Assembly (NCBI RefSeq): GCF_030687835.1
Contig: NZ_CP117449.1
Span: 3,658,001 to 3,722,000 of the forward strand
Source of the DNA: Pseudomonas hefeiensis
GTDB lineage: Bacteria > Pseudomonadota > Gammaproteobacteria > Pseudomonadales > Pseudomonadaceae
DNA length: 64,000 bases
Direction: 5' to 3'
Position 1 is the first letter of the stretch. Every line of letters begins with the position of its first letter. The translations under genes and the position numbers were made by a program. The notes under the pieces are model-generated. The model had not been told where the DNA came from, made no database searches, and saw only the letters and a list, made by a program, of their open reading frames with translations. Below, in pieces: positions 114 through 8,410 of the stretch.

Positions 114-779
114 ATGCCTGCTTCCACGTTTCGTTTCCAGGGCTGGTCGCTGTTCAGCCTGCTCGCCGCCCTGGTGCTGTTGATGACCGCACTGACCCTG
201 GCGCTCAACCCGGACCTGACCGAGGGTGTGCGCAGCGCCATCCGCGCCACGGCCCGCTCATCCTTCGCCCTGTTTCTGCTGGCCTTCACCGCCTCGGCGT
301 TCGCCGTGCTGGTGCCGTCGCCCCTGAGCCGGGCCCTGGTCCGCGAGCGACGTTTCATCGGCTTGGCCTTCGCGTTTTCCCATCTGGTGCACGCCGTGCT
401 GATCTACAGCTACGGCCAGCTCAACCCCGAGTTCTGGCCGGGTCGCACCACCCTTGGCAATGTCCCCGGCTCCGTCGGCTACGTGTTCATCCTGCTGCTG
501 GCCCTGACCTCCTTCAAAAGCACCACGCGCCTGATTGGCGCCAAAGCCTGGAAATGCCTGCACGTCAGCGGCATGTGGGTGCTGGTGGCGATCTTTGCTT
601 ACTCCAACTTCAAGCGCATCCCCATGAGTGCCTGGTACGTGTTGCCCTTCGGCCTGACCTGCGCCGCCATCGCGATCCGTCTGGTGGGCAAGCTCGCCCA
701 GGCCAACTCGCGCCGAAAGAATTCCTCCCCGTTGGATCGCGCAGCAGCCGCTCCGGTTGCCACTGACAAACCGAACTGA
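114..779 (+). CDS. Ferric-reductase-like transmembrane protein
   Basis: A 221-residue, very hydrophobic protein with about six membrane segments. It resembles the ferric reductase-like/YedZ(MsrQ)-type haem-binding membrane domain: histidines lie in helices around FSHLVHAV and [10 protein letters not shown], as expected for b-type haem ligands. The ATG at 114 is preceded by AAGGAG; the reading frame stays open upstream to position 6, but that part has no ribosome binding site. It is followed after 17 bp by a DoxX gene on the same strand, so the two are probably co-transcribed, and together they face the metallophore-RiPP genes across a REP hairpin. Inference: it moves electrons across the inner membrane, perhaps to a periplasmic metal or haem partner. 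The family assignment is by pattern only. Confidence 0.7.
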
Positions 780-796
780 GCCCCGGGAGATCGATC

Positions 797-1294
797 ATGT
801 CTGCAGATGTTTTGAAAGGCCTGCGCATAACGCTCGAACAGGCCGGGACATGGCTCGGGCCATTGGGCCTGCGCCTGTTCCTGGCCTGGGAGTTTTTTGA
901 ATCCGGGCGGGAGAAATGGCAGGGCGAAAACTGGTTTGCCCAAATCCAGGCGGCATTCCCCTTCCCCTTCAACCACCTGCCGGCCAGTTGGAACTGGGAA
1001 TTGTCGATGTGGGCCGAACTGCTCTGCGCCATCGCCCTGCTGATGGGCCTGGGCACCCGCCTTTCGGCGCTGGTGTTGATGGTGGTCACAGTCGTCGCCA
1101 CCGCTGCCGTGCACTGGCCGGCGGATTGGTCAACCTTGAGTGAACTGGCCCAGGGGTATGCCATCACCAATAAAGGCCACGGCAACTTCAAACTGCCGTT
1201 GATCTATCTGGTGGCGTTGTTGCCGTTGGTGTTGCAGGGGGCCGGGAAGTTGAGTGTGGATGCTGTGCTGAAGATCGGCCTGCACCGCCAATAG
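797..1294 (+). CDS. DoxX family membrane protein (HvfX-like)
   Basis: A 165-residue inner-membrane protein with four predicted helices and the DoxX hallmarks: an early [12 protein letters not shown] helix and a middle helix [22 protein letters not shown] lies just before the ATG. DoxX proteins are regular companions of MNIO/DUF692 RiPP maturation genes (HvfX in Haemophilus, and a DoxX member in bufferin loci). Here it is not in the same operon but converges on hvfC, and it shares a transcription unit with the ferric-reductase-like gene upstream. Inference: it serves the adjacent metallophore system, either in export or in redox support. The DoxX call is firm; the link to the RiPP rests on neighbourhood. 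Confidence 0.8.
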
Positions 1295-1427: not shown

Positions 1428-2177
1428 TTACGGCTGCACCCCGACAACCCCTTCCCTGTGCATCTGGCGCAACAACATCACCGCGCTGTCCATGAATTCG
1501 CTTGAATCCACCCCCGCCTCCCGTGCCAGCGCCAACAACTGATCGCGCCCAGCCAACCCGGGAAACTGCCCGATACGCTGCAACAGCCGCCAGGCCAACG
1601 GACTGAGCTCAGAAAAGCGCACCGCAAACCCAGGCGTTCGCCGCACCAGCAGCAGCGTCGGTTGCGGCGGTGGCGTCGATGGCTGGTAGCCGGGCGCCAG
1701 GCGATGGACCGGCCAGAGGTACGCCAGCGGCCAGGCCAAAGGTGAAACACGCAAAGACCGATCGAGCAATGCTGCCTCGTCACTGGCCGGCAGCGACTCG
1801 ACTTGCGCTTGCAGCAGCGCCATTTCGACCCACTCGTAGTGAGCCAGCTCGGCCATGAACGCCGGTTCGTCAGGCGACTGCCGGGCCGCGAGATAGCCCA
1901 CGAACTCCCCGGCAATGTCTGCGAAGCGCGGTGCGAGGCAACGATGCTCACGCAGGAAACGGCGTACGCAGACCCGCCAAGCCTCCGGCCCCAGCACGCT
2001 CACCAACACCGGAAAAGTGCCGCTGAGCAACCCACGCATGTTCTCGAAAATCAGGTCGCGATATACCTGCGCCCGGGCCACGTCCATGCCGGGCGGAATC
2101 GGGCAGTGATCAGGGTCACGCAGGTAGCGGGTCAACGCCTGTTGCTGTTGCTGCAGCGTCTGCATGATTTCAGCCAT
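1428..2177 (-). CDS. hvfC: HvfC/BufC-type RiPP maturation partner (DUF2063)
   Basis: A 249-residue protein with the N-terminal DUF2063 pattern: a glutamine-rich helix, then [20 protein letters not shown] and [20 protein letters not shown]. These proteins pair with the multinuclear iron oxidase (MNIO, DUF692) and help recruit the precursor peptide. The ATG at 2177 overlaps the stop of the DUF692 gene by 8 bp, which indicates translational coupling; the frame is open further upstream, but only inside hvfB. The C-terminal half ends with a winged-helix-like stretch ([15 protein letters not shown]), typical for the family. It is the last gene of the operon and is followed by the REP pair. Confidence 0.85.
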
Positions 2178-3057
2178 GGGGCACCGCCTGCCCTGGGTCG
2201 GCCTGATGTTGCAATTGGCGCAGGGTCTGCAGTTCGGCGGCCAGCACGGCGTAGGGCGGGAAATTGAAGTCCCGTTCGAGCAAGGTCGGCTGGATACCGA
2301 AACGTGCGTAGGCCTGGGCCAGCAACACCCAGACCACCGGTTTGACTGGCGCACCATGGCTGTCGATTTTCAAGGTATCGGACTCGTCGTAATGCCCGGC
2401 CACGTGCATGCCCACCACCCGCCCAGGCTCAAGGCCGGCCAGGAATGCCTGGGGGTCGAAGCCGTGATTGACCGAGTTGACGTAGACGTTGTTGACGTCC
2501 AGCAGCAGGTCGCAATCGGCTTCGTGCAAGACCGCGCGGGTGAATTCCAGCTCCGTCATGTCTTGTTGCGGTGCGGCGTAATAGGAAACGTTCTCCACGG
2601 CCAGGCGCCGCCCCAGAACGTCCTGGGCCTGCCGGATCCGTGCCGCCACGTGATGCACCGCTTCCTCGGTAAAGGGCAACGGCAGCAAGTCATACAAGTG
2701 CCCTTCATCGCCGCAGTAGCTCAGGTGCTCGCTGTACATCGGTACGTTGAAGCGTTCCAGGAAATCGCGCACCTGCGTCAGAAACGCCAGGTCCAGTGGC
2801 GCCGGCCCGCCCAGAGACAACGACAGGCCATGGCACGACAACGGATAGCGTTCGGCCAGCCAATGCAAAGCGGCGCCGTGAGCGCCGCCAATGCCGATCC
2901 AGTTTTCCGGGGCCACTTCAAGAAAGTCGAAATCCCCGGCGGGCGCCTCGCGCAGGTCATCGAGCAAGGCGCGGCGCAGGCCCAGGCCTACCGAGGGTTT
3001 GGAAATTGAGGGTGTGGACAGTATGGCGCGGCCTTTCAGGCCTGAATGTTGAGGCAT
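2170..3057 (-). CDS. hvfB: MNIO-family RiPP maturase (DUF692, HvfB/BufB)
   Basis: A 295-residue TIM-barrel protein of the DUF692 multinuclear non-haem iron oxidase family. Family signatures appear in order: [15 protein letters not shown] beta strand (here [13 protein letters not shown]), [56 protein letters not shown] and DSHGAPV; their His, Glu, Asp and Asn side chains are the usual iron ligands. Known members convert cysteines of EGKCG-type precursors to copper-binding oxazolone/thioamide or thiooxazole groups. The ATG at 3057 has AAGGAG eight bases upstream. It lies 168 bp downstream of the precursor gene, with a hairpin in between, and overlaps hvfC. The family is certain; the exact modification made here is inferred. 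Confidence 0.92.
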
Positions 3058-3129
3058 GGCACATCTCCTTGGGGTAAGAGATGGGAAGCCTTGAAGGACG
3101 ATTGCCAATCAGTCTGTAAGAACCAAACC

Positions 3130-3160
3130 CTGTGGCCAGGGAGCGGCTCCCTCGCCACAG
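3130..3160. repeat. Intercistronic hairpin between precursor and maturase
   Basis: CTGTGGCCAGGGAG pairs with CTCCCTCGCCACAG around a CGG loop, with one offset. It lies between the precursor stop (3226) and the hvfB start (3057). There is no T-run, so it is more likely an RNA-stability or attenuation element than a full terminator. Confidence 0.65.
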
Positions 3161-3225
3161 TTGTTCGCGCAACAGGGCATCGCTGTGACTGGCGCCCGCC
3201 CCATCAGGCTTCCCACCGGTGAAAG

Positions 3226-3612
3226 TCAGGACTCGATAGCCGCCCCACACTTGCCCTCGCCGCATTTGCCTTCGGCGCCCTTGGCCTGGCCTGCCAGGTA
3301 TTTCTCGGCTTCAGGCAACGAGATGCCGCCGTCATGGTTGGCGTCGATCTTGTCGTACTCAGCCGCGCGCTCTGGCGCCGCCGCGATGAACTCGTCGCGC
3401 GAAACCTTGCCGTCGTGGTTGGTATCGGTCTTGGCAAATTTATCTTCGCCGCACTTGCCCTCAGCGGGTTTCTTCACCGTATCGGCCGCCGCCAGGGTGT
3501 AGCCCTGGGCCAGGTCGTTCATGGTCAATGCCGAGGCTGCGGTGGAAAGGCCAAGGCCGCCAACCAGGGCCAAACCGAGTGCAAGAGAGGAATTGCTGGA
3601 GAAGTTGAGCAT
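3226..3612 (-). CDS. EF-hand metallophore RiPP precursor (bufferin/HvfA-like)
   Basis: A 128-residue secreted protein. A Sec signal peptide (MLNFSSNSSLALGLALVGGL, cut near STAASA) is followed by a short linker, a first EGKCG motif, two canonical EF-hand loops (DTNHDGKVSRDE and DANHDGGISLPE) and a C-terminal tail EGKCGEGKCGAAIES. Repeated EGKCG motifs are the cysteine targets of DUF692 maturases in bufferins/HvfA, and the maturase pair lies directly downstream. The ATG at 3612 has GAGGAA at the right distance; the open frame upstream of it is non-coding. Inference: an exported metal-buffering peptide whose EF-hand core may bind Ca2+ or simply scaffold the modified ends. The EF-hand insertion is unusual compared with the DUF2282-type precursors I know. 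Confidence 0.85.
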   Translation of the reverse strand: MLNFSSNSSLALGLALVGGLGLSTAASALTMNDLAQGYTLAAADTVKKPAEGKCGEDKFAKTDTNHDGKVSRDEFIAAAPERAAEYDKIDANHDGGISLPEAEKYLAGQAKGAEGKCGEGKCGAAIES

Positions 3613-3694
3613 GGGGGTGTTCCTCGAAAGATCAAATATGCCAATCACCAGCACCGGGGATCGGTGCGGCTGGCTGGCGTAGTTAACCGTCGAT

Positions 3695-3773
3695 GTGTAT
3701 CCGGGCTGTGTCGCCAGCCGAGGTGAAGACAAGCAGGTGTATCCAGGCCGCTCTGATACACACTGGGATACAC
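3695..3773. promoter_or_regulatory. Repeated GTGTATCC octamers in divergent promoter
   Basis: The octamer GTGTATCC occurs at 3695-3702 and 3737-3744 in direct orientation, 42 bp apart, and in inverted orientation at 3766-3773, with a one-mismatch inverted copy (TGATACAC) at 3754-3761. The 277-bp region separates the EF-hand precursor (-) from the ThDP enzyme (+). The repeats look like operator half-sites, but the regulator is unknown. Confidence 0.5.
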
Positions 3774-3889
3774 GCCCACGTCGGGCCCGCCCGCGAAAAA
3801 ATCTAAACCTTGAACGGCCTGCGTCGGTCCAGTCCTGTATGACCGTCAACGCTGCAGACCTGCTGCGGCCGATTAAGCGAGGGACAGAC

Positions 3890-5689
3890 ATGACCATGAC
3901 CGTGGGTGACTTTCTGGTTGAACGCCTTTACCAATGGGGGGTTCGTCGCATTTATGGCTATCCGGGCGATGGCATTAACGGCGTTTTTGGTGCATTGAAC
4001 CGCGCCAATGGAAAAATCCGCTTCATCCAGGCGCGTCATGAGGAGATGGCGGCTTTCATGGCCTGCGCGCATGCCAAATTCACTGGCGAGCTAGGGGTGT
4101 GTATTGCCACCTCGGGGCCGGGCGCGTCTCACCTCATAACAGGCCTCTACGACGCCCGAATGGACCACATGCCCGTCCTTGCCATCAGCGGCCAGCAGGC
4201 CCGCGCCGCACTGGGCGGGCACTACCAACAGGAACTGGACCTGGTCAGCCTGTTCAAGGACGTCGCCGGGGCCTTCGTCCAGCAAGCCAGCGCACCGTCC
4301 CAAGTGCGCCATCTGATCGACCGCGCCGTGCGCACGGCGGTCGGCGAGCGTCGGGTCACGGCGCTGATTCTGCCCAATGACCTGCAGGACATGGAGTACA
4401 CAGCACCACCCCACAAGCACGGTACGGTCCATTCCGGCGTCGGCTACCGCAAACCCAAGGTCGTGCCCTATGAAGAGGATTTGCGCAAAGCTGCCGACGT
4501 CCTCAATGCGGGCAAGAAAGTCGCGATCCTGGTCGGCGCCGGCGCGCTGCAAGCCACCGATGAGGTGATTGCCATCGCCGAGAAACTGGGCGCCGGCGTG
4601 GCCAAGGCCCTGCTGGGCAAGGCTGCCGTGCCGGACGACCTGCCTTGGGTCACCGGCGCCATCGGCCTGCTGGGCACCGAGCCCAGCGACAAGCTGATGG
4701 CCGGCTGCGATACATTGCTAATGATCGGCTCCGGCTTCCCCTATGCCGAATTCCTGCCGCCCGAAGGCCAGGTCCGTGGGGTGCAGATTGACATTCAGCC
4801 GGACATGCTCAGCCTGCGTTACCCCATGGAGGTCAATCTGCAAGGTGACAGCACCGACACCCTGCAGGCCCTGCTGCCGCTGATCGAAGAAAAAACCGAT
4901 CGCGCCTGGCGCAAGAAAATCGAGCATTGGCGAGCGGACTGGGACAAAACCCTGGAAAACCGCGCCCTCGTGTCGGCCAAGCCCATCAACCCACAGCGGG
5001 TCACGTTCGAGCTGTCCCCCCGCTTGCCGGATCGCGCCATCATCACCTGCGATTCCGGGTCTTGCGCCAACTGGTTCGCCCGGGATATCAGGATTCGCCG
5101 CGGCATGATGTGTTCGTTGTCCGGTGGACTGGCATCCATGGGTGCCGCCGTGCCCTATGCCATCGCCGCGAAATTCTGCCACCCTGATCGACCGGTGGTC
5201 GCTCTGGTGGGAGATGGCGCGATGCAGATGAACAACATGGCCGAACTGATCACCGTCGCCAAATACTGGCGTACCTGGGCCAATGGCACCTGGATCTGCG
5301 CGGTATTCAACAACCAGGACCTGAACCAGGTGACTTGGGAACAGCGCGTGATGGAGGGCGATCCTAAATTCGAGGCATCCCAGAACATCCCTGACGTGCC
5401 CTACCACCAGTTCGCTGAATCCATTGGCCTGAAGGGCATCCTGGTGGAGCATGAAGACAATGTGGCTGCCGCCTGGGAGCAAGCGCTAGCTGCGGACCGT
5501 CCGGTGCTGATTGAGTTTCGGACCGATCCCGACGTGCCACCGTTGCCGCCACACATCAAGCTGGAACAGGCGAAGAAATTTGCCTCGACTTTGCTGCAAG
5601 GCGATCCGAACCAGCGCGGCATCGTTGTGCAGACCGCCAAACAGGTACTCAGCAACCTGCTGCCGGGTCATCGCCAAGACAAGGAGTGA
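3890..5689 (+). CDS. ThDP-dependent enzyme, pyruvate oxidase/acetolactate synthase-like
   Basis: A 599-residue protein of the POX/AHAS superfamily. The N-terminal PYR domain carries the catalytic glutamate in RHEEMAAFMA (about residue 51), a central FAD/nucleotide-type domain follows, and the C-terminal PP domain has the ThDP/Mg site, GDG at 441-443 and NNQDLNQVTWEQ about 30 residues later. It is closest in appearance to the YdaP-type 'thiamine pyrophosphate-requiring protein' (pyruvate oxidase-like) rather than to IlvB. The ATG at 3890 follows GCGAGGGA; the longer open frame starting at 3695 runs through the repeat-bearing promoter and is rejected. It stands alone and is divergent from the metallophore operon. 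Substrate not established. Confidence 0.82.
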   Translation: MTMTVGDFLVERLYQWGVRRIYGYPGDGINGVFGALNRANGKIRFIQARHEEMAAFMACAHAKFTGELGVCIATSGPGASHLITGLYDARMDHMPVLAISGQQARAALGGHYQQELDLVSLFKDVAGAFVQQASAPSQVRHLIDRAVRTAVGERRVTALILPNDLQDMEYTAPPHKHGTVHSGVGYRKPKVVPYEEDLRKAADVLNAGKKVAILVGAGALQATDEVIAIAEKLGAGVAKALLGKAAVPDDLPWVTGAIGLLGTEPSDKLMAGCDTLLMIGSGFPYAEFLPPEGQVRGVQIDIQPDMLSLRYPMEVNLQGDSTDTLQALLPLIEEKTDRAWRKKIEHWRADWDKTLENRALVSAKPINPQRVTFELSPRLPDRAIITCDSGSCANWFARDIRIRRGMMCSLSGGLASMGAAVPYAIAAKFCHPDRPVVALVGDGAMQMNNMAELITVAKYWRTWANGTWICAVFNNQDLNQVTWEQRVMEGDPKFEASQNIPDVPYHQFAESIGLKGILVEHEDNVAAAWEQALAADRPVLIEFRTDPDVPPLPPHIKLEQAKKFASTLLQGDPNQRGIVVQTAKQVLSNLLPGHRQDKE

Positions 5690-5800
5690 GGCGCCACCCT
5701 GAAACGGTCGTTTTGCCTGAAGGCCAATAGCCAGGCGCCTCTGCGCCGTGTCAGCTGTCGGATCGGTTAAGTTAATTGAGCCGACCGCCGATACAGAGAC

Positions 5801-8410
5801 GTGCGGGATATTTCGCGTTTAGCTGATGGCTTGTTTATGACTGAAGATGCTGGCAACGACTCCACCGTTTCGCCCCCAGGCCTGCCCAGCCAGAGCTTCA
5901 CCCGTCGCACCTTCCCGACCATCATGCTTCTGCTGTTTGTCATGTCAGCACTGGCGATCGCACTGTTGCTCAACATTACCGGGGCCCAGGATGAGCGCGC
6001 CCGTGAACAAAGCCAGTTTTTCGCCCAGCGCGCCATCGACGGTATTCGCGCCGGCATCGGACGGGACTTGAGTGACTATTCCAAGTGGAGCGACGCCTAC
6101 CGGCATCTGCACGTCGAAATGGATAAAGACTGGGCCTATGACCAGGAGAACGTCGGCAGCAGCGTTTTCGGGCTCTACGGCTACCAGGCGGTGTTTGTCA
6201 TTTCCCCGACAGGCAAAACCGTCTATTCGGTCATCAATGGCGATATGAGTGAGGTCGACGCCGGCACATGGCTGGCCGGTGACCTGCAAGCGCTGGCGAA
6301 GAAAGCCAGCGCCCCGCAGAACCGCGATGAAGTCATCGTCGAGCTGCTGCATCACGACGGCGCGCCCGCGTTCGTCGCCGCCTCGGCCCTCACCGTCGGC
6401 ACCGACGACAGCGTGCCCGAAATCCCGGGCCCACCCAGTTTGCTGCTGTTCGTGAAAGTCCTTGATGCCGCCTCTTTACAAAACCTGGCGCGGGACTTTG
6501 CCCTGCCGGGTGCCCACATCACCGATGCGCCGGAGCAGATCGGCACAGCCCGGATATCCCTTGACGGCCAGACCGAGGAGGCTTTGGCGTGGCGCCCGGA
6601 GACCCCTGGCAACGATCTGCGCAAGGCACTGCTGCCCTTGCTGGTCCTGGCGCTGCTGGTCCTGGCCATCCTGGCGCTGGCCGTGCTGCGCCATGCCCTG
6701 GTCATGCTTCGCGCCCAGGAGCGTCAATACGCCAGCCTGTTGGCCCACCGCAAGGCACTGGAACGTAGCGAAGAACGTTTCCGGGACATTGCCGAAGTGT
6801 CCTCCGACTGGTTATGGGAAGTGGATTCGACCGGGACGCTGACCTACCTGTCGGAACGTTTTGAACAAGTGACCGGCTTCAACCCCACCCAATGGCTGGG
6901 CAAGCCCCTGCACAGGCTGCTCCATCCCCACGGCGGCTCGATTTCGATTGCCCAATGGCTGCTCGGCGGAGCCAACAGCGACTCGGCGGCCCCGTTGTTA
7001 TGCGAGTACACCGCGCGCAATCAACGCATCCGCACTTGCAAGCTTTCGGTGCGGGCCATTGAAGCCGGTGCCCAGGGTTTTCGGGGCACCGCCACCGACA
7101 TCACCGAGGAGCTACGGGCGCTGGCCCAGATCAAGCACCTTTCCCTGCACGACCCGCTGACCGGGCTGGCCAATCGAAACCGCCTGTTTGATTGCCTCAG
7201 CGAACATCTGGACCCGGCCGATGGCGCACCGCTGGCGGTGCTGAACCTGGACATGGACCGGTTCAAGCCGGTCAACGACTCCCTGGGGCATGCCGTGGGC
7301 GACAAGGTGCTGCGGGAAGTGGCCCATATCCTTCAGCAAAACGTGCGCAGTTCCGACCTGGTGGCCCGTCTGGGCGGTGATGAGTTTGTCATCGTCATGC
7401 CCGATCCCGGCAGTGCCCAGGACCTGGAGCAACTCTGTGAACGCCTGATCGATTGCATGCAACGCCCCATGCACCTGGACGGCAATACCTTGTACCTGGG
7501 CGTGAGCATCGGTGTGGCCTGGTCGCAACCCGGTGACGAACGCGCCACTGAACTGTTGCGCCACGCGGACATCGCTTTGTATGCGGCCAAGGCGGCGGGT
7601 CGCAACACCTGGCGGGTCTATGAGGAGGCCATGGGCAACATGGCCCGCGACCGTCGGCGCTATGAGCAGCAACTGCGCGACGCCATGCAACACGAGCAAC
7701 TGGAGCTGCGTTACTTGCCTCGCTTCGATGTGTGCGCCGAACAACTGCACGGCTTCGAGGCCCAGACTTTCTGGCATCATCCCGAGAAAGGTGAACTGGG
7801 CGGAGCGGACTTCATTCCGATCGCCGAAACGTCTGGCCAGCTGGAAGAACTGGGAACCTGGATGTTGATCAACGTCTGTGAAGAAGCCGTGACCTGGCCC
7901 ACCGCTGTCAACGTTTCCATCGCGGTTTCGCCCAAGTGGTTCAGCAGCAGCTTCTTACTCAAACAGGTGCGAACGTCCCTTGAGACAAGCGGCCTGGCCC
8001 CCCACCGCCTGACCCTGGAAGTGGCTGAAGGGGTTCTGCTGAGCGACCATAAAACGGTCGCCAGTACCCTTCATGCGCTCAAGGACCTTGGCGTGCGCAT
8101 CAACATCGACAAGTTCGGCACCAGCATCGCCTCCCTTCGCGAGGTATTGAACCAGCCGTTCGATGGCATTCGCTTCGATCGCAACATCCTGGCTCAACTG
8201 GGCCTTGAGCATGATCAGGAAGGCGTCCTGGCGATGATCCGACTCAGCCGCAGCGTGGGGCTGATGGTCACCGCCGAAGGCATCGAGAACGCCCGGCAAT
8301 TCAGCCAGTTGCGCAGCGTGGCCTGCGACCACGTTCAAGGCCCCTACTTTGGCTCGGCCCTGGCCCGCTCGGAAATGGCCTCGTTCTTTACCACCCCCAG
8401 ATGGCTCTAA
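5801..8410 (+). CDS. Membrane CHASE4-like/PAS/GGDEF/degenerate-EAL protein
   Basis: An 869-residue c-di-GMP protein. One helix lies at about 38-60, a periplasmic CHASE4-like sensor follows to about 270, and a second helix lies at about 275-302. A PAS domain spans about 322-440, followed by GGDEF (RLGGDEF near 523-529, with an RSSD inhibitory site five residues before) and EAL. The GGDEF half looks active. The EAL half reads GFEAQ instead of EAL/EVL, IDKFGT instead of the DDFGT pair of metal-binding aspartates, and LEVAEGV instead of LEITES, so phosphodiesterase activity is doubtful. The start is uncertain: GTG at 5801 or ATG at 5837, neither with a good ribosome binding site. It is probably monocistronic. 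Confidence 0.88.
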   Translation: MRDISRLADGLFMTEDAGNDSTVSPPGLPSQSFTRRTFPTIMLLLFVMSALAIALLLNITGAQDERAREQSQFFAQRAIDGIRAGIGRDLSDYSKWSDAYRHLHVEMDKDWAYDQENVGSSVFGLYGYQAVFVISPTGKTVYSVINGDMSEVDAGTWLAGDLQALAKKASAPQNRDEVIVELLHHDGAPAFVAASALTVGTDDSVPEIPGPPSLLLFVKVLDAASLQNLARDFALPGAHITDAPEQIGTARISLDGQTEEALAWRPETPGNDLRKALLPLLVLALLVLAILALAVLRHALVMLRAQERQYASLLAHRKALERSEERFRDIAEVSSDWLWEVDSTGTLTYLSERFEQVTGFNPTQWLGKPLHRLLHPHGGSISIAQWLLGGANSDSAAPLLCEYTARNQRIRTCKLSVRAIEAGAQGFRGTATDITEELRALAQIKHLSLHDPLTGLANRNRLFDCLSEHLDPADGAPLAVLNLDMDRFKPVNDSLGHAVGDKVLREVAHILQQNVRSSDLVARLGGDEFVIVMPDPGSAQDLEQLCERLIDCMQRPMHLDGNTLYLGVSIGVAWSQPGDERATELLRHADIALYAAKAAGRNTWRVYEEAMGNMARDRRRYEQQLRDAMQHEQLELRYLPRFDVCAEQLHGFEAQTFWHHPEKGELGGADFIPIAETSGQLEELGTWMLINVCEEAVTWPTAVNVSIAVSPKWFSSSFLLKQVRTSLETSGLAPHRLTLEVAEGVLLSDHKTVASTLHALKDLGVRINIDKFGTSIASLREVLNQPFDGIRFDRNILAQLGLEHDQEGVLAMIRLSRSVGLMVTAEGIENARQFSQLRSVACDHVQGPYFGSALARSEMASFFTTPRWL

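Follow-up and report, generated by a model that had tools for sequence, protein, structure and literature searches.

The window analysed here is a 64,000-nucleotide stretch of DNA from Pseudomonas hefeiensis. It contains a gene for a 128-residue protein in which a hydrophobic N-terminus is followed by a LAQGYTLA motif, an EGKCG motif, two canonical 12-residue EF-hand loops, and the sequence EGKCGEGKCG (Table 1). The protein has three cysteines in total, each of which is located inside an EGKCG. The original prediction had placed a secreted product with EGKCG motifs on both sides and two EF-hand loops at these coordinates and had not named the strand; translation shows that it was correct and that the protein is read from the minus strand, the plus-strand translation of positions 3226–3612 being unrelated. 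A Shine-Dalgarno-like GAGGA is positioned ahead of the gene, at 3625–3621. The predicted gene order was borne out as well: hvfB and hvfC are located downstream on the same strand, score over the NCBIfam cut-offs, and overlap by 8 bp.

Table 1. Features of the precursor locus and of the region upstream of it, in window positions.
Feature	Position	Strand	Description and basis
EGKCG/EF-hand precursor gene (HvfA-like, EfhP-like)	3226..3612	-	128 aa; translation, Pfam and NCBIfam matches, pN/pS
Probable signal peptide	3529..3612	-	residues 1–28, ends ...STAASA; judged by eye
LAQGYTLA leader motif	3490..3513	-	residues 34–41; conserved in alignments A1 and A3
N-side EGKCG	3448..3462	-	residues 51–55; genome pattern search, pN/pS
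EF-hand loop 1, DTNHDGKVSRDE	3391..3426	-	residues 63–74; Pfam EF-hand_5, conservation
EF-hand loop 2, DANHDGGISLPE	3310..3345	-	residues 90–101; pattern and conservation in relatives
C-side tandem EGKCG-EGKCG	3244..3273	-	residues 114–123; NCBIfam, genome pattern search, pN/pS
BfmR-motif-like site, CACACTGGGATACA	3759..3772	+	9 of 11 positions
Stretch with four GATACA/TGTATC half-sites (3696, 3738, 3755, 3767)	3696..3772	.	region conserved in 11 loci
hvfB, MNIO (DUF692) maturase	2170..3057	-	295 aa; PF05114; NCBIfam HvfB over cut-off
hvfC, DUF2063 partner	1428..2177	-	249 aa; PF09836, PF22106; NCBIfam HvfC over cut-off
hvfX, DoxX family	797..1294	+	convergent; PF07681; NCBIfam HvfX over cut-off
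Ferric-reductase-like membrane protein gene	114..779	+	convergent; PF01794, 29.9 bits, cut-off 28

The precursor matches Pfam EF-hand_5 with 34.5 bits (cut-off 25.9), and loop 1 is the sole stretch that passes by itself; loop 2 was assigned by its pattern and its conservation in relatives, without a Pfam match of its own. The NCBIfam model KCGExKCG_twice matches with 34.1 bits (cut-off 19.5), and the HvfA equivalog NF050188 with 25 bits, far under its curated cut-off of 95. A Pfam search found no DUF2282 domain in the precursor (P0002). The n-region of the probable signal peptide (MLNFSSNSS, within 3529–3612) is free of lysine and arginine, a feature shared with the relatives L123 and L124, whereas such a residue is present in most of the others.

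The AlphaFold2 model of the precursor, computed from 20 sequences, has a low mean pLDDT of 55.4. The blocks covering residues 61–110 reach pLDDT values of 69–80, and residues 16–54 and 112–128 are below 50. The model supports a description of the precursor as a folded EF-hand pair with flexible arms. Solved structures related to the precursor by sequence were not found at E ≤ 0.001, and a Foldseek search with the model returned EF-hand proteins from E 0.028 and none at E ≤ 0.001. Lanthanide binding was considered because lanmodulin ranked third in the Foldseek list. The EF loops of lanmodulin typically have proline at position 2. This position is threonine or alanine, not proline, in the loops of the precursor, and lanthanide binding was set aside.

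The Pfam match of the ferric-reductase-like protein is the same as that reported for PA4103 of P. aeruginosa (pfam01794; PMC4148453). A thiamine-pyrophosphate-enzyme gene (3890–5689) diverges from the precursor gene, and the intergenic space with BfmR-like boxes is common to both; a gene for a CHASE4-PAS-GGDEF-EAL protein (5801–8410) is located near the locus. A sigma-70 promoter scan of positions 2900–4000 gave no matches. A terminator-like site in the hvfA–hvfB gap (3141–3128, minus strand) was rejected, as it is within shuffle expectation (2 found, mean 1.2). To the left of the window, the stretch L222 contains genes for an OmpR-family regulator (4537–5277) and a kinase (5274–6584), which together span roughly 3.5 to 1.4 kb ahead of the first base of the window. 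The best NCBIfam models of the pair are OmpR and EnvZ, both under cut-off, and a search of the P. hefeiensis genome with the kinase found beside L135, a locus of the EfhP type, gave its best match left of the window, at 3655706–3656569 (72% identity). An IS110-type transposase gene (L222:6705–7643) is positioned between the kinase and ferric-reductase-like genes. A small DUF2790 gene (L222:4044–4310, minus strand) diverges from the regulator gene, and GATACA/TGTATC words and two 9-of-11 matches to the BfmR motif are found in or near the gap between them.

The back-translated EGKCG DNA pattern has three matches in the 6.45-Mb genome, all of which are inside the precursor gene, and the reversed control pattern has none; a second EGKCG precursor was not found by this search. 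The precursor gene has a pN/pS of 0.07–0.11 against each of nine orthologues. In all pairs of the ten close sequences, both EGKCG stretches have a pN of 0.000 at a pS of 0.38 and 0.47. There are zero amino-acid changes in the EGKCG motifs of these ten sequences, and the lone N-side motif is as strictly conserved as the C-side pair. The pooled pN over the same pairs is 0.038 in the EF region, 0.037 in the signal peptide, and 0.137 in the five residues ahead of the tandem (108–112). At the level of sequence comparison, these values confirm that the precursor gene is more than a chance pattern and is under selection. The genome contains two MNIO genes. The second (L001), 36% identical to the window HvfB, is BufB according to an NCBIfam match over cut-off; it is directly preceded by a DUF2282 precursor gene and followed by genes for DUF2063 and DoxX proteins. 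Because the genome contains no other EGKCG pattern and the second MNIO has its own adjacent DUF2282 precursor, an independent precursor of the same maturase is not seen elsewhere in the genome, and it is very likely that the gene encodes the precursor for the adjacent HvfB/HvfC pair, as had been proposed.

The precursor tracks HvfB across the genus. Of 298 Pseudomonas genomes, 112 yielded precursor matches at E ≤ 1e-6 (full-length, residues 1–128, in 8), and 112 contain HvfB at an identity of at least 62%, a limit that was chosen after a score gap (378 to 338 bits) was seen and that leaves 20 HvfB rows at 56–59% identity below it. The two occur together in 110 genomes, the precursor alone in two (G183, G233), HvfB alone in two (G077, G218), and neither in 184; as the genomes are related, the Fisher value of this co-occurrence does not count independent events. 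G183 (L027, L109) and G233 have an EGKCG/EF-hand precursor and only MNIOs more distant than the 62% limit. At least one genome with an HvfB below the limit (G008) has an EGKCG-like precursor of another kind next to this HvfB (L113). In some genomes, for example G005, G129, and G262, the components are scattered: hvfX is accompanied by a short hvfA, and both an EfhP-like gene and hvfBC lie at places of their own. Short EGKCG precursors are also located beside hvfX, with no hvfB within stretches of about 10–11 kb, in L034–L037, L039–L048, L050, and L056; in the checked genomes of these loci, hvfBC is found elsewhere, and one maturase may thus serve several unlinked precursors.

The original prediction proposed a search for EF-hand and EGKCG architectures near DUF692, and 99 of 118 distinct precursor ends collected have an EF pair. 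Its doubt that EF-hands are an established part of such precursors is answered by a publication from 2025, which describes EGKCG/EF-hand fusions associated with MNIO genes, suggests a role for calcium, and gives EfhP as an example (PMC12452194). The 19 ends without an EF pair comprise 17 short EGKCG-only precursors, one that is disrupted (L038), and one of another kind (L113); degenerate EF pairs were not found among the EF-less precursors listed, apart from the disrupted L038. In 80 of the 99 EF precursors, EGKCG-type motifs are present on the N-side only, in two to seven copies, and 19 (from Pseudomonas and Pseudoxanthomonas) have them on both sides, with two or three C-side copies. Each of the 99 thus has at least two motifs on one side, which fits the report that FonBC modifies a two-repeat peptide and that a FonA peptide with one repeat is not modified (PMC13097082). 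Among 80 named loci, the best of 252 found, 16 are two-sided (10 Pseudomonas, 6 Pseudoxanthomonas), 59 are N-side only, and 5 are unscored; the two-sided Pseudomonas loci include P. thivervalensis, P. kilonensis, P. chlororaphis PCL1601, and P. daroniae. Position 1 of EF loop 1 is aspartate in 98 of the 99 precursors, position 5 is aspartate in 98, and position 12 is glutamate in all, and loop 2 has aspartate, aspartate, and glutamate at these positions in all 99, a conservation favoured by the threshold of the EF finder (8 of 12 consensus points). In the genome G046 (L038, L059), the frame of an EfhP-like precursor is disrupted between the EGKCG and EF-hand parts.

The regions upstream of 11 two-sided loci are conserved around GTGTATC/GATACAC words. 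The palindrome GTGTATC-N13-GATACAC gave no useful genome-wide signature (10 places at up to two mismatches, 6 for the control), and therefore the published BfmR motif, TACAA-N3-GATACA (PMC8025907), was used instead. Among the 126 distinct precursors with at least 320 bp upstream and a script-accepted start, 107 have this motif within 320 bp at 9 or more of 11 positions, compared to 9 of 378 dinucleotide shuffles, which do not model the kinship of the upstream sequences. GATACA in either sense, a word first noticed in the same loci as those counted, whereas the counted motif is the published one, is upstream of 118 of the 126 (24 of 378 shuffles). When precursors are classed by a simple pattern, which files L013 as ‘short’ despite its EF-hands, 12 of 19 upstream regions of two-sided precursors have the motif at this threshold and 7 are below it.

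The boxes are shared with unlinked maturase genes. In 22 of 23 unlinked hvfB genes, with L070 and L110 left out as their precursor is on the other side, GATACA is present within 250 bp upstream (shuffles 9 of 115), and the BfmR motif in 13 (6 of 115). Both are absent from the 150 bp upstream of 61 hvfB genes located behind a precursor (motif in shuffles 6 of 305) and from the 250 bp upstream of 85 hvfC genes (8 of 425). The BfmR motif is also found upstream of the regulator gene (15 of 18; shuffles 7 of 90), the ferric-reductase-like gene (13 of 22; 8 of 110), hvfX (8 of 52; 1 of 260), and relatives of the divergent thiamine-pyrophosphate-enzyme gene (5 of 7; 0 of 35). The regulator or kinase, at more than 50% identity, is present in 37 of the 68 listed hvfB loci of at least 8 kb, among which L057 and L105 are the same place; some of the others end too soon, and L033, L063–L065, L068, L069, L110, and L113 (10–12 kb) are without the pair.

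BfmRS belongs to the OmpR/EnvZ family and is reported to be activated by high osmolarity (PMC10924945). In P. aeruginosa, bfmRS corresponds to PA4101-PA4102, and PA4107-PA4106-PA4105 form an operon (PMC4148453). The gene most activated by BfmR there is efhP (11,268-fold; PMC8025907), and BfmR binding and dependence have been reported for PA4107 (PMC4148453, PMC8025907). On the basis of position, boxes, and family, we refer to the regulator pair left of the window as ‘BfmRS-like’. The regulatory evidence favours a switch of the BfmRS kind over a copper sensor. A link of BfmR with DUF692 was not found in the literature searched, outside of which most subscription papers lie, and the genetic switch apparently shared by the precursor and the unlinked maturase looks like a new detail.

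The closest known system is that of EfhP. Its operon consists of efhP, DUF692, and DUF2063 genes, which are PA4107, PA4106, and PA4105 (PMC4053335), and the order of ferric-reductase-like, DUF2063, DUF692, and EF-hand genes together with a two-component pair is the same in PA4101–PA4107 and at the P. hefeiensis locus. EfhP is exported, as the window protein probably is, and combines EGKCG motifs, described as four repeats with a proposed role in iron sensing (PMC11559002), with two EF-hands. However, the EF-hands of EfhP are C-terminal to a short EGKCG domain, and the window protein lacks the C-terminal tail found in proteins of the EfhP type. Because two more EGKCG motifs follow its EF pair, the window protein is a variant of the EfhP type. 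The captophorins HvfA/oxazolin, fontiphorin, and gonophorin (PMC13097082, PMC13419390) share the EGKCG repeats and the HvfB, HvfC, and HvfX genes and have a leader with a signal peptide, which is probable in the window protein, whereas ‘EF-hand’ has no occurrence in the available passages of these two papers. Buf1 bufferins (DUF2282) similarly have MNIO, DUF2063-partner, and DoxX genes near a small exported cysteine-containing protein, but belong to a different precursor family, of which the P. hefeiensis genome has one locus (L001). The general design of an EGKCG and EF-hand fusion is already published; the two-sided layout looks new, although two-sided members may be listed without comment in the supplements of PMC12452194.

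The locus is a real, coherent system and a variant of a published kind. The best explanation of its sequence, selection, gene order, co-occurrence, and shared boxes, and one that we consider likely, is that the gene product is synthesised on ribosomes as the precursor of a modified metallophore, which would belong to the HvfA/Buf_EGKCG class and its EF-hand (EfhP-like) subclass and act as a calcium-stabilised periplasmic thiooxazole metal buffer under BfmRS-type control. As suggested by the boxes and the gene order, a BfmRS-type two-component system would switch on hvfA, and also hvfBC where it is located elsewhere. By comparison with characterised relatives, HvfC would present the precursor and HvfB would oxidise its EGKCG cysteines to 5-thiooxazoles, which have been reported together with copper binding for characterised EGKCG products (PMC13097082); thiooxazoles on EGKCG are also described in PMC12668002, the preprint of that paper, and in PMC13419390. 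The C-side tandem pair would be the site most surely modified. The lone N-side site, though conserved, may stay unmodified, as did the one-repeat FonA peptide (PMC13097082). The product would be exported by Sec, binding of calcium in the periplasm would fold its EF-hand pair, and both flexible flanks would provide soft-metal ligands on a calcium-stabilised carrier, the metal probably being copper by analogy with characterised EGKCG products. A further step is conceivable, but quite improbable: calcium folding of the EF pair could join the N-side and C-side thiooxazoles. Tight binding of copper, or of a different soft metal, would then require calcium, and the protein would work in the periplasm as an AND gate for two metals, controlled by a BfmRS-type system.

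It is possible, if rather doubtful, that the EF-hands serve only as a module for folding, export, or stability in an ordinary EGKCG metal buffer without regulatory calcium, a reading that overlaps with the one preferred here. The confidence of AlphaFold2 in the EF core alone, with disordered flanks, is consistent with it, as are the short EF-less relatives L033 and L057, the HvfB proteins of which are 80–81% identical to the window HvfB. The nearly full conservation of the calcium-ligand positions speaks against it, as calcium binding seems to matter, for a purpose that conservation does not tell. That the protein is in the first place a calcium sensor, in which the EF pair does the work, as has been suggested for EfhP in calcium and iron signalling, and with EGKCG cysteines, modified or not, for iron or redox sensing, is unlikely: the calcium binding, calcium-dependent folding changes, and calcium/iron regulation reported for EfhP (PMC9132961, PMC11559002) and the near-invariant ligands of the 99 precursors agree with it, but the precursor tracks HvfB across the 298 genomes, both EGKCG stretches are unchanged in ten sequences, and short EGKCG precursors without an EF pair occur next to HvfB or HvfX, so that the system can do without the EF pair but not without EGKCG.

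If the metallophore reading is true, BfmRS-type systems would act throughout Pseudomonas as a main switch for a metallophore system. Recombinant EfhP, which was made in E. coli from efhP and binds calcium with a Kd of 13.7 µM (PMC9132961), would then presumably have been studied without its modification. EfhP has been studied as a calcium sensor, and work on MNIOs has named EfhP-type fusions; being compact, the two-sided precursor lends itself to the question of whether calcium and a soft metal are handled jointly by a single molecule. Three additions are firm, all drawn from sequence: the layout with EGKCG on both sides, the conservation of this layout, and the sharing of BfmR-type boxes by unlinked precursors and maturases.

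The origin of the two-sided layout was approached through an HvfB tree of 86 HvfB-type rows that excludes L063 and L095. In 20 rows the maturase gene has a two-sided precursor next to it, in 38 an N-side-only one, and in 3 a short one; 24 rows have no adjacent precursor, and the remaining row is the BufB of the P. hefeiensis genome. There is an even chance that the layout arose in one of two ways: a short precursor gained, by insertion, an EfhP-type EF module that now separates its EGKCG copies, or, in reverse, the module was lost from the precursors that are now short. The resemblance of the two ends of the window protein to the short precursors L033 and L057 argues for insertion, and the spread of two-sided loci over the base of the clade, with the short ones nested, argues for loss. 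Against a choice of either direction, the root and deep forks of the tree are unsettled, the two-sided label needs four changes, and the long branches of L001 and L113 meet. A recent insertion of the EF module, which was the first reading, was not borne out by the tree. In the Pseudoxanthomonas locus L183, two tandem precursors with the motif variants EGMCG and EGRCG are positioned ahead of one hvfB.
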